Below the pieces are notes generated by a model. That model saw only the letters and a list, made by a program, of their open reading frames with translations, was not told the origin of the DNA and made no database searches. From positions 1 through 32,754 of the forward strand of contig CACZTI010000099.1 of the NCBI GenBank assembly GCA_902783985.1: 32,754 nucleotides of DNA, read 5' to 3'. The DNA comes from an uncultured Erysipelotrichaceae bacterium (GTDB taxonomy: Bacteria; Bacillota_I; Bacilli_A; RF39; UBA660). Shown piece by piece: positions 3,107 through 21,502 of the stretch; the first letter of the stretch is position 1, and each line of letters opens with the position of its first letter. Both the position numbers and the translations under genes were made by a program.

Positions 3107-6091
3107 ATGAAAAAAAACATTGGTTCAATTTTTAGTTTAATATTAATAGGAGGAATAATTGCATCATTGTATTTTATTTTCAATATCGAACAAGAAAAAA
3201 AATATCGAACTTTATTATTAGACAATAAGGTTGCAGTTTTCATGGTAGATGGTAATGTTTATTCTCGTACTGCAATTATTGATGGAAAAATGGAGTATTT
3301 TCCAGATAATCCTGAAAAAGATCATTATGTATTTGAATATTGGGAATTAGAAGGTAAAAAATTTTCTAATAGTACTAAACTAAAGGATGATATAACTTTA
3401 ACAGCAGTTTTTAAAAAAGAAAACAATGATAATAAAAATAATGGTAATAATAATTCAGGGAATTCTAATAACAAACAAATATCAGATACAACCAAAGTTG
3501 AAAATATCAAACTAGATAAAAACATTATAAAAATAAATATTGGCCATGGAGAAAAAATAAATGGAGAGATTTTACCTAGCAATGCAACAAATAAAAAAAT
3601 AACATGGATTAGTAATAATTCTACTATTGCAACTGTTGATGATAATGGTCAAGTAAAAGGAGTAGGTATAGGAACAACATGGATTATTGCAAGAAGTAGT
3701 AATGGTAAAGAATCAAAGTGTGAAGTAACAGTTTCAGGAAATAATATCAATGCTTCCAAAATATCTATTGATAAAAAGAATACTAGTATTAATGTAGGTG
3801 ATAGTATAACATTAAACCCCATAATCACACCCGAAAATACTACTAATAAAGTTGTAACTTGGCAAAGTTCTAATAATGATATTGCAACTGTTAGTACCAA
3901 CGGTGTAGTAAAAGGTTTAAAAAAAGGAAGTGTTACAATAACTGTTAAAACAAGTAATGGAAAACAAGATCAAAGTACAGTAACAATATATGATAAAAAA
4001 ATTGATGTATCAAAAATTGATATAAATATTACTAATAAAAATATTGAAGTTGGAGATAGTTTTAAAATAACATCGACTATTACACCTAATAATGCAACTA
4101 ATAAAAATGTTACATGGCAAAGTTCTAATGATAAAGTAGCAATAGTGGATCAAAATGGTTCAGTTAAAGGTGTTGGTCCTGGTAGTGCAACGTTAACTGC
4201 TATAACCCATAATGGTAAAGGAGCAGAATGTCATCTTACAGTTACAGGAAAAATAATAGCAGTATCAAGTATAACTCTTAATAGTAATAATTTATCAATG
4301 TTTGAAGGAGATAAAACAACTTTAAAAGCAACTATTAATCCTAGTAATTCAACCAATAAAAATATTAAATGGATTAGTAGTTCCTCAAAAATTGCTACAG
4401 TAGATCAAAATGGTGCTGTAGTAGCAGTTGGTGTTGGAACAACTACAATAACGGCAACAATCGAAGGTAAAAGTTCATCATGTACCGTTAAAGTATCCGC
4501 TAAAACAGTGGCAGTAACTGCAGTAGTATTAAATAAAATAAATGCCAGTATGTATGTGGGAGATAATATTCAATTAATGGGGACCGTAAGTCCAAGTAAT
4601 GCCACAAATAAATCGATTTCATGGCGTAGTAGTAATACAAGTATTGCAACAGTTGATGCTAGTGGCAAAGTAACTGCTAAATCACCGGGTACCGCTAAAA
4701 TAATTATAACTTCTAGCAATGGTAAAAGTGCAGAATGTACGATTACTGTAAATAAAAAAGTAACCACAACACCCACACCAAATCCTGTTAAAACACCAAG
4801 CCCAAGTAATGGTATTAGTAAAATTCATTTTATGAATGTTGGAAGTTCCGATGCTACCATAATTGAAAGTAATGGGCATTTTGGACTAGTAGATACAAGT
4901 AATCCATATAATGATAATACTCCCCAATCATCAGCTACACCAAATAAAACAGAAAGCGTTGAACATGTTATTGACTATTTATCAAGATTAATTGGTTGTA
5001 GTGGCACTAATTGTAAAGGAAAATTAGATTTTGTTGTTGCAACACATTCACATTCTGATCATATTGGTGGTGTTCCAAGAATCGCTAGTGTTTTTGCCAA
5101 TTCTAATACAAAATATTATTACCGTTCATATGTTAAAACAACTGATGATTCCGTTCATCCTGATTGGGATAATATGGGATATCATAATCGTGCCGTAAAC
5201 GCTATGAAATCATCTGGGGCTCAAATGATTGAAATAACTAATAAAGATATAACTTTTAATTTTTATGATTATACAATAAAATTAATGAATACCGAAAGTG
5301 TTAGTAGCGATGAATTATCAAATAATCTAGCAAATGGTGAAAATAAAAATGCTGTAATAGAAATGATTACTCATAAGAATGGTAAAAAAGTCTTATTAGC
5401 ATCTGATATGGAGATGCAAGATGAAAATAGAATGAAAAATAAAATAGGTAAGGTTGATGCTTTAAAATTTGGTCATCATGGATACTCGACATCTTCATCA
5501 AATGATTTTATTGGTACTTTAAAACCTAGTGTTTCTATTATAAGTAATAATATGATATCATTAAATGCTAGTGTCTTTGGTATGTGTTACGCCCTATATA
5601 ATGGGACAAATATATATATGACTGGAAATTCCCAAGATGCTATAGTTATGACGTTCAGTAATAATGGTTATACTATTTTAAATTCAAACGGTAGTTCCAT
5701 GAAAACATCTAATTTTTGTTCATCAAGTAAAGTAGGATGGCAACAAATTAAACTTCCTAGTGAGAAAGAAAATGTTTGGATATATATTGATTCTAATCAT
5801 AAAATATCAACTGGATGGAAGAAAATAGATAATTTATGGTATTATTTTGATGAATCAGGAATTATGGCAACTGGTTGGCGAGAAACATATTGGGAAGGAA
5901 AAAAATGTTGGTATCACATTGATAATGATGGACACTATGATACAGGTTGGAAACAAATAACATGGAGCAAGGGAACAAATTGGTTTTATTTTGAATCTGA
6001 TGGATGTATGTTACAAAATACATCAAGAACAATCAATGGCAAACATTATTCCTTTGATTCTGATGGTGTATGTACGGGACCAGATTGTTAA
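3107..6091 (+). CDS. Exported ComEC-like metallo-beta-lactamase with five BIG2 repeats and wall-binding repeats
   Basis: This is a 994-residue exported or membrane-anchored mosaic. An N-terminal hydrophobic segment (about 7-26) is followed by an InlB B-like/Flg_new module (about 45-103), an N-rich linker (105-125), and five Ig-like BIG2 repeats at about 131-209, 217-294, 301-379, 386-463 and 470-548. Each repeat contains a variant of SNATNK..W.S....IATV. After a Pro/Thr linker comes a metallo-beta-lactamase domain (about 569-860) with HSHSDH at 647-652 and GHHGYSTSSSN from 789. It resembles the soluble hydrolase domain of ComEC. The C-terminus (about 876-994) holds GW..../YYFDESG-type cell-wall-binding repeats. 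The likely job is hydrolysis of a phosphodiester or ester at the wall; the substrate is unknown. It sits 24 bp after popT. The ATG at 3107 follows AAGAGG. Confidence 0.85.
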   Translation: MKKNIGSIFSLILIGGIIASLYFIFNIEQEKKYRTLLLDNKVAVFMVDGNVYSRTAIIDGKMEYFPDNPEKDHYVFEYWELEGKKFSNSTKLKDDITLTAVFKKENNDNKNNGNNNSGNSNNKQISDTTKVENIKLDKNIIKINIGHGEKINGEILPSNATNKKITWISNNSTIATVDDNGQVKGVGIGTTWIIARSSNGKESKCEVTVSGNNINASKISIDKKNTSINVGDSITLNPIITPENTTNKVVTWQSSNNDIATVSTNGVVKGLKKGSVTITVKTSNGKQDQSTVTIYDKKIDVSKIDINITNKNIEVGDSFKITSTITPNNATNKNVTWQSSNDKVAIVDQNGSVKGVGPGSATLTAITHNGKGAECHLTVTGKIIAVSSITLNSNNLSMFEGDKTTLKATINPSNSTNKNIKWISSSSKIATVDQNGAVVAVGVGTTTITATIEGKSSSCTVKVSAKTVAVTAVVLNKINASMYVGDNIQLMGTVSPSNATNKSISWRSSNTSIATVDASGKVTAKSPGTAKIIITSSNGKSAECTITVNKKVTTTPTPNPVKTPSPSNGISKIHFMNVGSSDATIIESNGHFGLVDTSNPYNDNTPQSSATPNKTESVEHVIDYLSRLIGCSGTNCKGKLDFVVATHSHSDHIGGVPRIASVFANSNTKYYYRSYVKTTDDSVHPDWDNMGYHNRAVNAMKSSGAQMIEITNKDITFNFYDYTIKLMNTESVSSDELSNNLANGENKNAVIEMITHKNGKKVLLASDMEMQDENRMKNKIGKVDALKFGHHGYSTSSSNDFIGTLKPSVSIISNNMISLNASVFGMCYALYNGTNIYMTGNSQDAIVMTFSNNGYTILNSNGSSMKTSNFCSSSKVGWQQIKLPSEKENVWIYIDSNHKISTGWKKIDNLWYYFDESGIMATGWRETYWEGKKCWYHIDNDGHYDTGWKQITWSKGTNWFYFESDGCMLQNTSRTINGKHYSFDSDGVCTGPDC

Positions 6092-16127: not shown

Positions 16128-16156
16128 TTGTTTTTTTTCTAACATTGTAATATGAT
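16128..16156 (+). promoter_or_regulatory. Candidate promoter of comEA-comEC-dinD
   Basis: TTGTTT (16128-16133), 17 bp and TATGAT (16151-16156). The transcript would begin near 16163, only about 15 nt before the strong SD-like sequence. No ComK box was recognised. Confidence 0.55.
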
Positions 16157-16176
16157 TATCTTGTCAGCTGATATAA

Positions 16177-16222
16177 AAAAGGAGGAGGTAAACTATTTTT
16201 AGTACCCCAAAAAAATAGTTTA
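16177..16222 (+). promoter_or_regulatory. Detached strong SD (STAB-SD-like) plus 12-bp hairpin in the comEA leader
   Basis: A run ending in GGAGGAGGT (16181-16189) is an excellent match to the 16S anti-SD but has no ATG, GTG or TTG within the next 15 nt. It runs directly into a perfect hairpin: TAAACTATTTTT (16189-16200), the loop AGTACCCCAA and AAAAATAGTTTA (16211-16222). The comEA ATG is 14 nt past the hairpin and has no SD of its own. Two readings are possible. The 30S may bind as a 5'-end stabiliser, as in the STAB-SD of B. thuringiensis cry3A. Alternatively, the folded hairpin brings the SD close to the ATG. Confidence 0.6.
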
Positions 16223-16236
16223 TTACAATAATTTAT

Positions 16237-16908
16237 ATGGATTATTATAAATTAAAAGTATTAAACCATAAAAAAATAATTATTTTTATTATCATCATAA
16301 TTATTATGATATTGTTAGGTTATTATTATTTTTATTATGAACATGAAAGTGATAATATTGTCTTAGAAAAAGAAGAAGTGAGTAGTGCTACTACGATTTC
16401 TATTGATTCTATTGAAACAATATGTGTTGATATTAAAGGACTTGTCGCTAAACCTGGTGTTTATTCTTTTAAAAAAAATGATAATGCAAGAATAAATGAT
16501 TTAATATTAAAAGCAGGTGGATTATTAAAAGATGCTGATACATCGTTTTTAAATCTTTCAAAAAAATTAGAAGATGAAATGACTATTATTATTTACTCTA
16601 AAAGTGAAGTAGAAAATTATGTTAAAGAGCAAAATGATCTTTTGAAAAAATTAGAATTATGTGAGCAAAAGGTTAAAAATAACGCTTGTATTAATCAACC
16701 AGAAGTAAATAATAGTAATGAAAAAATTAATATAAATAAAGCATCAAAAGAAGATTTAGAAACTATTCCAGGAATTGGAAGTAATAAAGCAGAAAATATT
16801 ATTAATTATCGTAATAATACACCTTTTGAAAAAGTTGAAGATATCAAAAATGTTGATGGAATAGGAGATAGTTTATTTGAAAATATTAAAGAATATCTTA
16901 CTATCTAA
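16237..16908 (+). CDS. comEA: ComEA, competence DNA receptor
   Basis: This is a 223-residue protein. One long N-terminal membrane segment (about 12-34) is followed by an SLBB-type domain (about 61-121; VDIKGLVAKPGVYSF, LILKAGGLLKDAD), a charged linker with Cys142 and Cys151, and a C-terminal helix-hairpin-helix pair (about 164-223) with NINKASKEDLETIPGIGSNKAENII. This is the exact layout of ComEA, which binds incoming double-stranded DNA outside the membrane and hands it to ComEC. Its start at 16237 lacks a nearby SD; see the leader feature. comEC begins inside its 3' end. No pilus (comG) genes are in the window. Confidence 0.95.
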   Translation: MDYYKLKVLNHKKIIIFIIIIIIMILLGYYYFYYEHESDNIVLEKEEVSSATTISIDSIETICVDIKGLVAKPGVYSFKKNDNARINDLILKAGGLLKDADTSFLNLSKKLEDEMTIIIYSKSEVENYVKEQNDLLKKLELCEQKVKNNACINQPEVNNSNEKININKASKEDLETIPGIGSNKAENIINYRNNTPFEKVEDIKNVDGIGDSLFENIKEYLTI

Positions 16909-18883
16909 CTATTTGTTAAAAATCATTTTGTTTTTAATTATTATTATAAGTTTTATAAGAATATCATTAAATAATAAGAGTAAATATGATTTAAAGGAAG
17001 AATCTTTTCAATTAATAGTTGATAAAGTGTATTATAAAAACCAAAAATATGTAATTGAATTTATTGGAAAAGAAAAATTAATAAGTTATTATGAAAAAGA
17101 ATTTCCCTATGATATCGGTGATATATTAAATGTTAAAGGAACTCTTTATAAAGCAGACAATAAAACAATACCTAATTTATTTAATTATCAAAAATATTTA
17201 GAAAATAAAGATATATATTATTTAATTAACATAAATGAAATGTCTCTTTATAAAAGAAATAATAATTTATTAAATAATATCAAAAAATCAATAATTAAAA
17301 GAATATCAAAAATTCCTAAAAATGAATATCTTTATACTTTTATTTTAGGCGATAAACATTACTTGAATGATGATATCAAAAATAGTTTTTCTTATAATAA
17401 TCTATCTTATCTTTTAGCAATTGGTAGTTTACATGTATATTTAATTGCAAAAATACTAGATTATTTTCAAAGAAAAATTCGTATAAAAGAAAAATATCAC
17501 TTAATAATAATAAGTTTAATATTTTCCTTCTTTTTTTTACTATTTAGAGAAAATATTGGTATTTTAAGAAGTCTTTTATGTTATTTAATAAAAAGAATTT
17601 TAAAATATTTTCATATAAAATATAAATATTCCAATGTTATTATTATTGTTGGTATTATCTTTCTTTTAATAAATCCTAAATATCTATATCATATAGGTTT
17701 TTTATATTCTTTTATTATCAGTTATGGAATATCTTTGTATAGAAAAATAATTAAAGGATCATATTGTCAAAAATTATTAAAAATAACTTTACTTGCAACA
17801 TCATTATCAATACCAATAACTATTTATAATAACTATGAAATTAATTTTTTGGGTATTGTTATATCCTTTATTTTTAATATTATTTTTCATTTTTTGCTAT
17901 TTCCTTTATCTATAATTGTATTTATTTTTCCTTTCTTAGGTAATATATATAATATAGTCTTTACAATTATAGAAAATATCACATTATCTTTAAGCAATAT
18001 TACCATATTTAATGTTATTTTTCCTAAACCATCAATTTTTATAGTAATTATTTATTATTTTATATTATTACTAAAACCATCTAAGAATTTTTTTTATTAT
18101 TCATTATTAATGTTATTAATATATAAAATAATATTTAAAATATTGTTAAATGATTTTGTATTATTTCTTGATGTTAATCAAGGTGATTCTTGTATTATTA
18201 AAAACAATAATAATGTATATGTAATAGATACTGGTAGTGGTATTAATGATTATTCTAGTGATATTATTAATTATCTACATTCTATAGGTATAAATAAAAT
18301 AAATACTCTTTTTATATCTCATGGTGATTATGATCATATAGGATCAGCCATTAATTTAACCAATAATATTAATATCGATAATGTTATATTTAATTGTGGT
18401 GAACTTAATGATTTAGAAAATGATTTAATAAATAATTTAAATAAAAAGAAAATTAAACATTATAGTTGCGTTAATCAAATAAATCGTCATAATATCACCT
18501 TATTAAATACAAAGATATATGATAATGAAAATGATAATTCATTGGTTATGCTAATCAATATGCATAATTATAATTTTATGTTTATGGGAGATGCATCAAG
18601 TACAACTGAAAAAGAAATATTAAATAGATATAATTTACCAGATATCAATATATTAAAAGTAGGTCATCATGGAAGTAAAACAAGTAGTTCTAATGAATTT
18701 ATAAAAAAAATAAATCCTAAATATTCCATTATTAGTGTTGGTAAAAATAATCTGTATGGTCATCCAAATAAAGAAGTATTAGATAATTTACAAGATTCTA
18801 AAATATATAGAACTGATCAAGATGGAAGTATTATGTTTAAGATTAAAAATAAAAAATTGAAAATAGAGACTTGTAGTCCATAG
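16877..18883 (+). CDS. comEC: ComEC, DNA uptake channel with C-terminal metallo-beta-lactamase domain
   Basis: This is a 668-residue membrane protein, somewhat shorter than the roughly 780 of B. subtilis. The order is: N-terminal membrane segment, OB-like DUF4131 domain (about 36-125, with NLFNYQKYL), the competence membrane domain (about 150-425), then a metallo-beta-lactamase domain (about 427-660) with [18 protein letters not shown] (482-487; the HxDxDH form usual in ComEC) and [11 protein letters not shown]. It forms the channel for single-stranded DNA, and the hydrolase domain may degrade the other strand. The family motif ISGLHV reads IGSLHV (182-187). The TTG start at 16877 is supported by AGGAG (16863-16867), 9 nt upstream inside comEA; the genes overlap by 32 bp. 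A TTG at 16913 is the only other early candidate and lacks an SD. Confidence 0.95.
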
Positions 18884-19810: not shown

Positions 19811-19847
19811 AAAAAAATAAGTTACTTTTTAGGTAACTTATTTTCTT
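19811..19847. terminator. Bidirectional terminator between dinD and rnj
   Basis: A perfect 12-bp stem (19814-19825 with 19833-19844) encloses a 7-nt loop. On the minus strand the tail is a run of T (A 19811-19817 on +), ending rnj, whose last codons lie in the stem. On the plus strand the tail TTTTCTTAT can end the com operon. Confidence 0.9.
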
Positions 19848-21502
19848 ATATCCGTTATAATTGGTAAAACAAGTGGTCTTCTACCAGTTAATTCATCAAT
19901 ATATTTTGCAATAGTAATTGCTAAAGTACTTCTAATATCAGCAAATGTTGTATCAGGATCTTTTAATTTTTCAATAATAATCATACTACATTTTACTTCA
20001 ATCATTTTTAATAGTTCTTCACTTTTATTTACTTGTACAAAACCTCTTGTAGTAATATTAGGTTTTATAAGTAATTTTCTTTTTTTAATATCAAGATTAG
20101 CAATAATAACCAAAATTCCATCGCTAGCCATTATTTTACGATCTCTTATAACTCCAGCTGCTACTTCACTTGCATTATTCCCATCAACAAAAACCTCTTC
20201 TTGTTTTATCGATTCTCCTTGATATATCTTACCTTTATCAAGAATAAGAGAGTCTCCATTATCTAAGATAAATGTATTATTGGGATCAACTCCACAAGCA
20301 ACACTTATATCAGCATGATTTTTAAGCATTCGATATTCACCATGGAAAGGTAACATATACTTTGGTTTAATTAATCTTATCATTAATTTTAATTCTTCGA
20401 TATTAGCATGTCCAGATGTATGAATATCAATATTATCAGTATTAGTGTAAACGGTAACCCCTTTTAAATATAGTTTATTGATTGTTCTACCAATACTCAT
20501 AGCATTACCAGGAATAGGACTAGATGAAAATATTACTACATCATCTGGTCTTAATTTAATAGATTTATGTTCACCATCAGCTATTCTTGATAAAGCAGCA
20601 AGTGGTTCTCCTTGACTACCTGTACATAAAATACATACTTCATTTGGTTTTAAATTGTTCGCTTCATCTGGTGTAATAAATAATTCTTTATGATTTATAT
20701 ATCCACCATTTATTGATATTTCAATATTATTTTCCATACTTCTTCCGAAAATGCATATTTTTCGATTATATTTATAACATGTTTCAACAATATGTTTAAG
20801 CCTATAAATATTAGAAGCAAAAGTTGCAATAATAATTCTTTCTAATTTATGTTTAGCAAAAATATCATTTAAAGCTTCATCAACTTTCGATTCACTATTA
20901 CTAACCCCTTCATTTAAAGCATTGGTAGAATCACTTACTAATAAGTCAACACCTTCTTCACCAATACGAGCCATTTTATGAAGATCAGCCATTGGTCCAA
21001 TTGGTGTTAAATCAAATTTAAAATCACCTGTAGTAACAACTGTTCCATTAGGTGTTTTAATTCTAATACCATGTGAATCAGGAATTGAGTGTGTTGTTCT
21101 AAAAAAATCAACAATAAAATATTTAAATTTAACGATATCATCTGACTGGTATGTTCTAACATTATCGTAACGGATATTTTTATCTTGTAATTTTAATTTA
21201 ATTAGTTCACTAGCCTGGTTTGGTGCGTAAATATAAGGAATATTTACTGTTAATAGTAAAAATGGTATACCACCAATATGATCTTCATGTCCATGAGTAA
21301 TAAATAATGCTTTAATTTTACTTTCATTTTCTTTAAGATAAGAATAATCTGGTACTAGATAATCAACACCAAATGTAGTCATATCTGCAAATGATATTCC
21401 AGCATCAATAATAATGATTTCATCATTATGTTCAAGGGCATACATATTTTTGCCTATTTCACCAAGTCCACCCAAGATAATAAACTTTGTTTTATCTTTC
21501 AT
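19838..21502 (-). CDS. rnj: Ribonuclease J
   Basis: This is a 554-residue protein, the typical RNase J length (B. subtilis J1 is 555). The metallo-beta-lactamase core begins LGGLGEIGKNMY and carries HGHEDHIGG with His70, His72, Asp74 and His75. SDSTNA, the beta-CASP motifs including CTGSQGEPLAALSRIA, SGHA, and the C-terminal domain follow. RNase J is the main 5'-3' exoribonuclease and an endonuclease of Firmicutes mRNA turnover, and also matures 16S rRNA. One paralogue only is visible, so J1 versus J2 is undecided. A strong SD, AAAGGAGG, precedes the ATG at 21502 on the minus strand. It is divergent from dnaG and convergent with dinD. Confidence 0.97.
   Translation of the reverse strand: MKDKTKFIILGGLGEIGKNMYALEHNDEIIIIDAGISFADMTTFGVDYLVPDYSYLKENESKIKALFITHGHEDHIGGIPFLLLTVNIPYIYAPNQASELIKLKLQDKNIRYDNVRTYQSDDIVKFKYFIVDFFRTTHSIPDSHGIRIKTPNGTVVTTGDFKFDLTPIGPMADLHKMARIGEEGVDLLVSDSTNALNEGVSNSESKVDEALNDIFAKHKLERIIIATFASNIYRLKHIVETCYKYNRKICIFGRSMENNIEISINGGYINHKELFITPDEANNLKPNEVCILCTGSQGEPLAALSRIADGEHKSIKLRPDDVVIFSSSPIPGNAMSIGRTINKLYLKGVTVYTNTDNIDIHTSGHANIEELKLMIRLIKPKYMLPFHGEYRMLKNHADISVACGVDPNNTFILDNGDSLILDKGKIYQGESIKQEEVFVDGNNASEVAAGVIRDRKIMASDGILVIIANLDIKKRKLLIKPNITTRGFVQVNKSEELLKMIEVKCSMIIIEKLKDPDTTFADIRSTLAITIAKYIDELTGRRPLVLPIITDIRK

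Follow-up and report, generated by a model that had tools for sequence, protein, structure and literature searches.

A candidate split ribosome-binding site, bridged by a hairpin, upstream of comEA in an uncultured Erysipelotrichaceae bacterium

The best-described split ribosome-binding sites are those of phage T4. The STAB-SD of Bacillus thuringiensis cry3A was reportedly described by Agaisse and Lereclus in 1996. In T4, a hairpin reduces the path between Shine-Dalgarno (SD) sequence and AUG from 22 to 5 nt in gene 38 and from 27 to 11 nt in gene 25 (PMC3014915). In Escherichia coli thrS, too, a hairpin lying within the binding site is accepted by the ribosome, as stated in a paper that cites Sacerdot et al. 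on this point (PMC3936740). Here, we compare the comEA leader of an uncultured Erysipelotrichaceae bacterium with these systems.

The leader lies within a stretch of 32,754 nucleotides, the whole of which is referred to here as the window (Table 1). ComEA was assigned by its Pfam/NCBIfam domains (TIGR00426, SLBB, and HHH_3), and the genes for DnaG and RNase J are found further downstream. No GGAGG-type SD is found at the usual spacing before any of the in-frame starts at the comEA-comEC junction (16877, 16913, and 16928) and, therefore, comEC is probably translationally coupled to comEA.

Table 1. Features of the comEA leader and neighbouring genes (positions in the window).
Feature	Position	Strand	Remarks
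Putative sigma-70-type promoter, TTGTTT-17-TATGAT	16128..16156	+	Consensus match only
8-bp palindrome TCAGCTGA	16164..16171	.	Sits at the predicted +1
Detached SD AAGGAGGAGGT	16179..16189	+	AAGGAGG kept in 4/4 comEA-bearing genomes of the genus
12-bp hairpin in the SD-AUG gap	16189..16222	+	Loop AGUACCCCAA at 16201-16210; stem kept, with changed sequence, in L036, L008, and L009
A/T-rich spacer before the start codon	16223..16236	+	No SD; proximal SD duplex +0.8 kcal/mol
comEA	16237..16908	+	Start codon set by the N-terminus MDYYK(L/I)K, conserved in four species
comEC	16877..18883	+	ORF opens within comEA
RNase J gene	19838-21502		In the window, beyond comEC

An earlier sequence-only reading of this DNA had pointed to a strong SD with no start codon in range, fused to a perfect 12-bp hairpin and followed by a comEA gene lacking an SD of its own, and all of these elements were recovered. 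The SD (GGAGGAGGT, 16181-16189) is positioned approximately 50 nt upstream of the comEA AUG (16237) and no ATG, GTG, or TTG falls within its range in the window leader, though an ATT at 16195-16197 does. The arms of the inverted repeat (TAAACTATTTTT, 16189-16200; AAAAATAGTTTA, 16211-16222) enclose the loop AGTACCCCAA, and the hairpin extends to 14 bp (16187-16224) if two G-U pairs are counted. An intrinsic terminator was considered and rejected, with no U-run after the stem and none predicted.

The same reading had placed the SD close to the 5′ end of the mRNA, and the promoter consensus match agrees with this. Transcription of comEA would start near 16163, and each of the four leaders from the genus has its detached SD approximately 15-20 nt downstream of the predicted 5′ end. 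Promoter-like sites occur at the corresponding place in L036 (TTGATA-17-TATGAT), L008 (TTGCTA-17-TATATT) and, weakly, L009. The distance from promoter to SD resembles that of an ordinary short leader, the hairpin being an insertion between SD and AUG. A palindrome occupies the same place in the window, L036, L009, and L008 and changes symmetrically between species (TCAGCTGA in the window, TCGGCCGA in G003, and TGGTTGCAACCA in G004, the latter two being genomes of the same genus); it may represent an operator or a 5′ hairpin. A regulon was also sought genome-wide using the palindrome GTCAGCTGAT and GGAGG-N-ACCCC, and no second copy in a similar leader was detected. Likewise, an origin from a repeat or mobile element was rejected, the leader being single-copy in the genome.

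Within its own genome the comEA start is an outlier. Among 928 ORFs surveyed from 1.12 of 1.31 Mb, 83% form a proximal SD duplex at least as stable as -6 kcal/mol, against +0.8 for comEA. In genes of this genome carrying GGAGG, the spacing between motif and start is 3-12 nt in nearly all cases (median 5), reaching at least 13 nt in one of 217 genes and at least 16 nt in none of the 217. In only eight of the 928 genes, infC (ATC start) and prfB among them, is a strong SD detached (by 22-75 nt) and no strong proximal SD present, and in three of these eight (comEA, ileS, and one unknown gene) the gap holds a clear hairpin. The match of ileS and the unknown gene to the comEA anatomy is loose, and ileS retains AAGG near its AUG. 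In ileS (L133, 9424-12522, minus strand), AAAGGAG is followed by a 12-bp hairpin with ACCTC in its loop and then by AAGGATTTATG; no Rfam T-box match was obtained for this leader. A hairpin alone is not rare, as the 32.7-kb window, at 25% GC, contains two perfect 12-bp hairpins, and it is the combination of a detached SD, a hairpin, and a missing proximal SD that is rare. The frequency of such hairpins could favor chance, with an unrelated hairpin beside a decayed SD. However, the order of elements is the same in four species whose stems have been replaced, with a combined shuffle p below 1e-4, and we regard chance as extremely unlikely.

Five genomes of the genus, whose members have small genomes, were sampled and comEA is present in four of these, with ComEA identities of 61-83%; the fifth, G002 (65% complete), gave no match to comEA or its leader. 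The order of promoter, strong SD, hairpin, 9-13 unpaired nucleotides, and AUG is kept in all four comEA-bearing genomes, with 48-68 nt from GGAGG to ATG, and no SD is present at the comEA AUG in any of them. The stems pair UAAACUAUUUUU with AAAAAUAGUUUA in the window, UAGACUAUUUAUUU with AAAUAAAUAGUUUA in G001, and AAAUAAUCUA with UAGAUUAUUU in G004, while that of G003 consists of 18 bp with one bulge. No sequence match to the window stem can be made for those of G003 and G004, and the window and G001 stems differ in extra base pairs and in a U-A pair replaced by A-U; thus, it is the pairing rather than the sequence that has been kept. As there are only four leaders, two of them close, formal covariation is thin and this conservation is of modest strength. 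Hairpin energies range from -6.7 to -12.7 kcal/mol and are better than those of shuffled sequences in all four leaders (dinucleotide-shuffle p for the SD-to-AUG fold of 0.0085 in the window, 0.0005 in G001, 0.003 in G003, and 0.015 in G004; Fisher combined p = 5e-5 for the three most divergent leaders). The anti-SD GGATCACCTCCTTT is present in G004. A second hairpin over the AUG was also considered and rejected, being found in the window, possible in G001, and absent from G003 and G004.

The hairpin had been proposed earlier to bring SD and AUG together, and of the three readings put forward this is the best supported, with the hairpin kept in 4/4 leaders, the stems changed, and no other SD available. 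We tentatively interpret the comEA leader as a split (bipartite) ribosome-binding site of the T4 gene 25/38 type, an explanation that falls a little short of probable, in which the hairpin probably sets how well comEA is translated. A 30S subunit would dock on the strong SD, which would be single-stranded and close to the predicted 5′ end of the mRNA, and folding of the hairpin would take 32-48 nt out of the path, leaving the AUG 13-20 nt from the SD vs. 48-68 nt when unfolded, a state in which the AUG would have no usable SD. Initiation would be modest, hinging on the stability of the hairpin and possibly on whatever recognizes the conserved ACCCC loop. Because comEC overlaps comEA without a clear SD, such a device would set the levels of both DNA-uptake proteins, ComEA and ComEC. 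The residual distances with the hairpin discounted (13, 16, 16, and 20 nt) exceed both the 3-12 nt of normal genes here and the T4 cases; translation of comEA is therefore probably weak or regulated. This long residual distance may reflect weak initiation, sliding of the subunit from an SD used as a standby, or a partner of the ACCCC loop that improves or blocks initiation. A point against the split site is that initiation at the A/T-rich AUG might need no SD.

Such an SD-free start, at an A/U-rich AUG, is what a STAB-SD or standby site would entail, with a parked 30S subunit shielding the mRNA from RNase J or waiting, and the hairpin acting as a roadblock or spacer. This was among the original suggestions and part of it has held up: an RNase J gene is present in the window and, if the predicted promoter is right, the SD is close to the 5′ end in 4/4 leaders. 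There is also a precedent in cry3A, where an SD-like, non-initiating sequence binds the 3′ end of 16S rRNA and blocks RNase J1 (PMC4113751). However, the cry3A stabilizer sits approximately 129 nt before the start codon and is not itself the element that directs translation, whereas a gene protected in this way should have its own ribosome-binding site and none of the four leaders offers comEA a second SD. Nor does this explanation give the hairpin a role that would account for its being kept directly after the SD in every member. We consider it unlikely, and a weaker reading than the split site.

Alternatively, the detached SD could serve a short ORF of 6-8 codons ending before the AUG, with comEA translated by reinitiation. 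G003 has an ATG in range of the SD (ATG GAA ATG ACT TAT TAT TAT CAA TAA), an AUU in range opens an ORF of seven or six codons in the window and G001, respectively, and related genera use non-AUG starts for comEA. However, three of the four leaders lack a canonical start, the codons are not conserved, the G004 frame runs into comEA without a stop, and an AUU or AUA in range followed by a nearby stop is expected by chance in A/T-rich sequence. A leader peptide is thus very unlikely in our view. An N-terminally extended ComEA was rejected for the window, G001, and G003, where frame 0 upstream of the AUG is closed by stops and the SD, therefore, cannot serve a longer protein.

The loop has a conservation of its own. 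The motif ACCCCAA is common to the window, G001, and G003 (3/4) although their stems differ, and is unexpected at 25% GC. The leader could accordingly be a switch, in which base pairing between the ACCCC loop and the end of the SD, or binding of the loop to a protein, small RNA, or ligand, closes or opens the split site. Loop-SD pairing, another of the initial proposals, is possible in three of the four leaders (GGUA/UACC in the window and GGG/CCC in G001 and G003), and in G004 neither the C-rich loop nor the additional G's that follow GGAGG are present. This pairing would, however, comprise only 3-4 bp across a stem of 12-18 bp and is absent in G004; moreover, the switch has no known partner and no Rfam riboswitch or leader family (Rfam 15, gathering score) matched the leaders of the window, L036, L008, or L009. 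We regard a switch of this kind as quite unlikely.

The comparison of leaders from relatives that the sequence-only reading had called for gave a divided result. Inside the genus none of the four leaders has lost the stem or the SD, while relatives outside the genus lack the arrangement, which is therefore a genus-level trait. The family survey covered 112 comEA leaders, four from the genus and 108 from other genera, and the detached-SD/hairpin arrangement was found in none of the 108, in which the SD adjoins the start (that of L249 being only weak). With 4/112 leaders, all in one genus, the arrangement therefore arose, or was kept, there only.

Other comEA leaders of the family have peculiarities of a different kind. 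Ten leaders from related genera (L076, L078, L084, L089, L092, L205, L217, L218, L243, and L256) place AUA, AUU, or AUC at the correct spacing after a strong SD (about -15 to -18 kcal/mol); these starts are mostly in register with the ATG, GTG, or TTG of orthologues, the N-terminus being mostly xTFKYRYRKQ or (I)TFKYRYRKQ. Non-standard starts of this type are known for infC. A search for further ORFs with such starts gave none among 242 ORFs in part of one such genome and five candidates among 973 ORFs in the window genome, infC included. In the latter, infC (L190, region 4885-5388, minus strand) has an apparent ATC start after GGAGGTGTTTAAT, and two more ORFs have a strong SD with ATT or ATA replacing ATG (L174 at ~7960, plus strand; L156, minus strand). 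A GTC start is described for sigR, under IF3 control (PMC5472188). Of the 95 comEA leaders with a proximal SD, 17 carry this SD in a hairpin shaped like a terminator, where it lies in the 3′ arm and a U-run precedes the start codon (L010, L014, L020, L023, L035, L074, L082, L083, L087, L202, L206, L211, L212, L213, L227, L231, and L240). The same test on control genes gave 0/566 in the window genome and 0/127 in one relative, these two genomes being the only controls and neither being among the 17. This correlation suggests that lineages differ in the means by which they restrain comEA translation. The ACCCC loop could then serve as the target of a small RNA, a protein, or the SD and switch comEA-comEC on or off, as one of several independent devices in the family for translational control of DNA uptake, alongside AUA/AUU/AUC start codons and SDs inside terminator hairpins and with the split site itself among them; this broader proposal is, in our opinion, doubtful.

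Control of comEA at translation initiation was not found in the literature searched. A conserved chromosomal split site on a competence gene would mean that bacteria themselves use hairpin-bridged initiation, and the four leaders would provide natural variants for measuring the reach of the ribosome across a hairpin. Taken with the odd starts and the SD-burying hairpins, it points to translation initiation as a step at which DNA uptake is restrained family-wide.

The known systems resemble the comEA leader to different extents. As in T4 genes 25 and 38, the SD is too far from the AUG and a stable hairpin would shorten the path, and the gene 25 hairpin is similarly retained among close relatives but missing from distant ones (PMC3014915). 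In contrast to T4, comEA is a bacterial chromosomal gene, its stems are 10-18 bp with a C-rich loop motif, and the site is predicted from sequence; the linear distance is 48-68 vs. 22-27 nt and the residual distance 13-20 vs. 5 and 11 nt. In thrS, the ribosome likewise contacts two single-stranded parts flanking a hairpin that need not unfold; however, that hairpin (-48 to -14) precedes the start region and sets it apart from a further single-stranded domain, whereas the comEA hairpin separates SD from AUG (PMC3936740). The cry3A STAB-SD resembles the comEA leader in that a strong SD lacking a canonical start codon lies close to the 5′ end of the mRNA, a predicted end in the case of comEA, and in the presence of RNase J (PMC4113751), but comEA differs in having no separate SD and a hairpin directly after the detached one.
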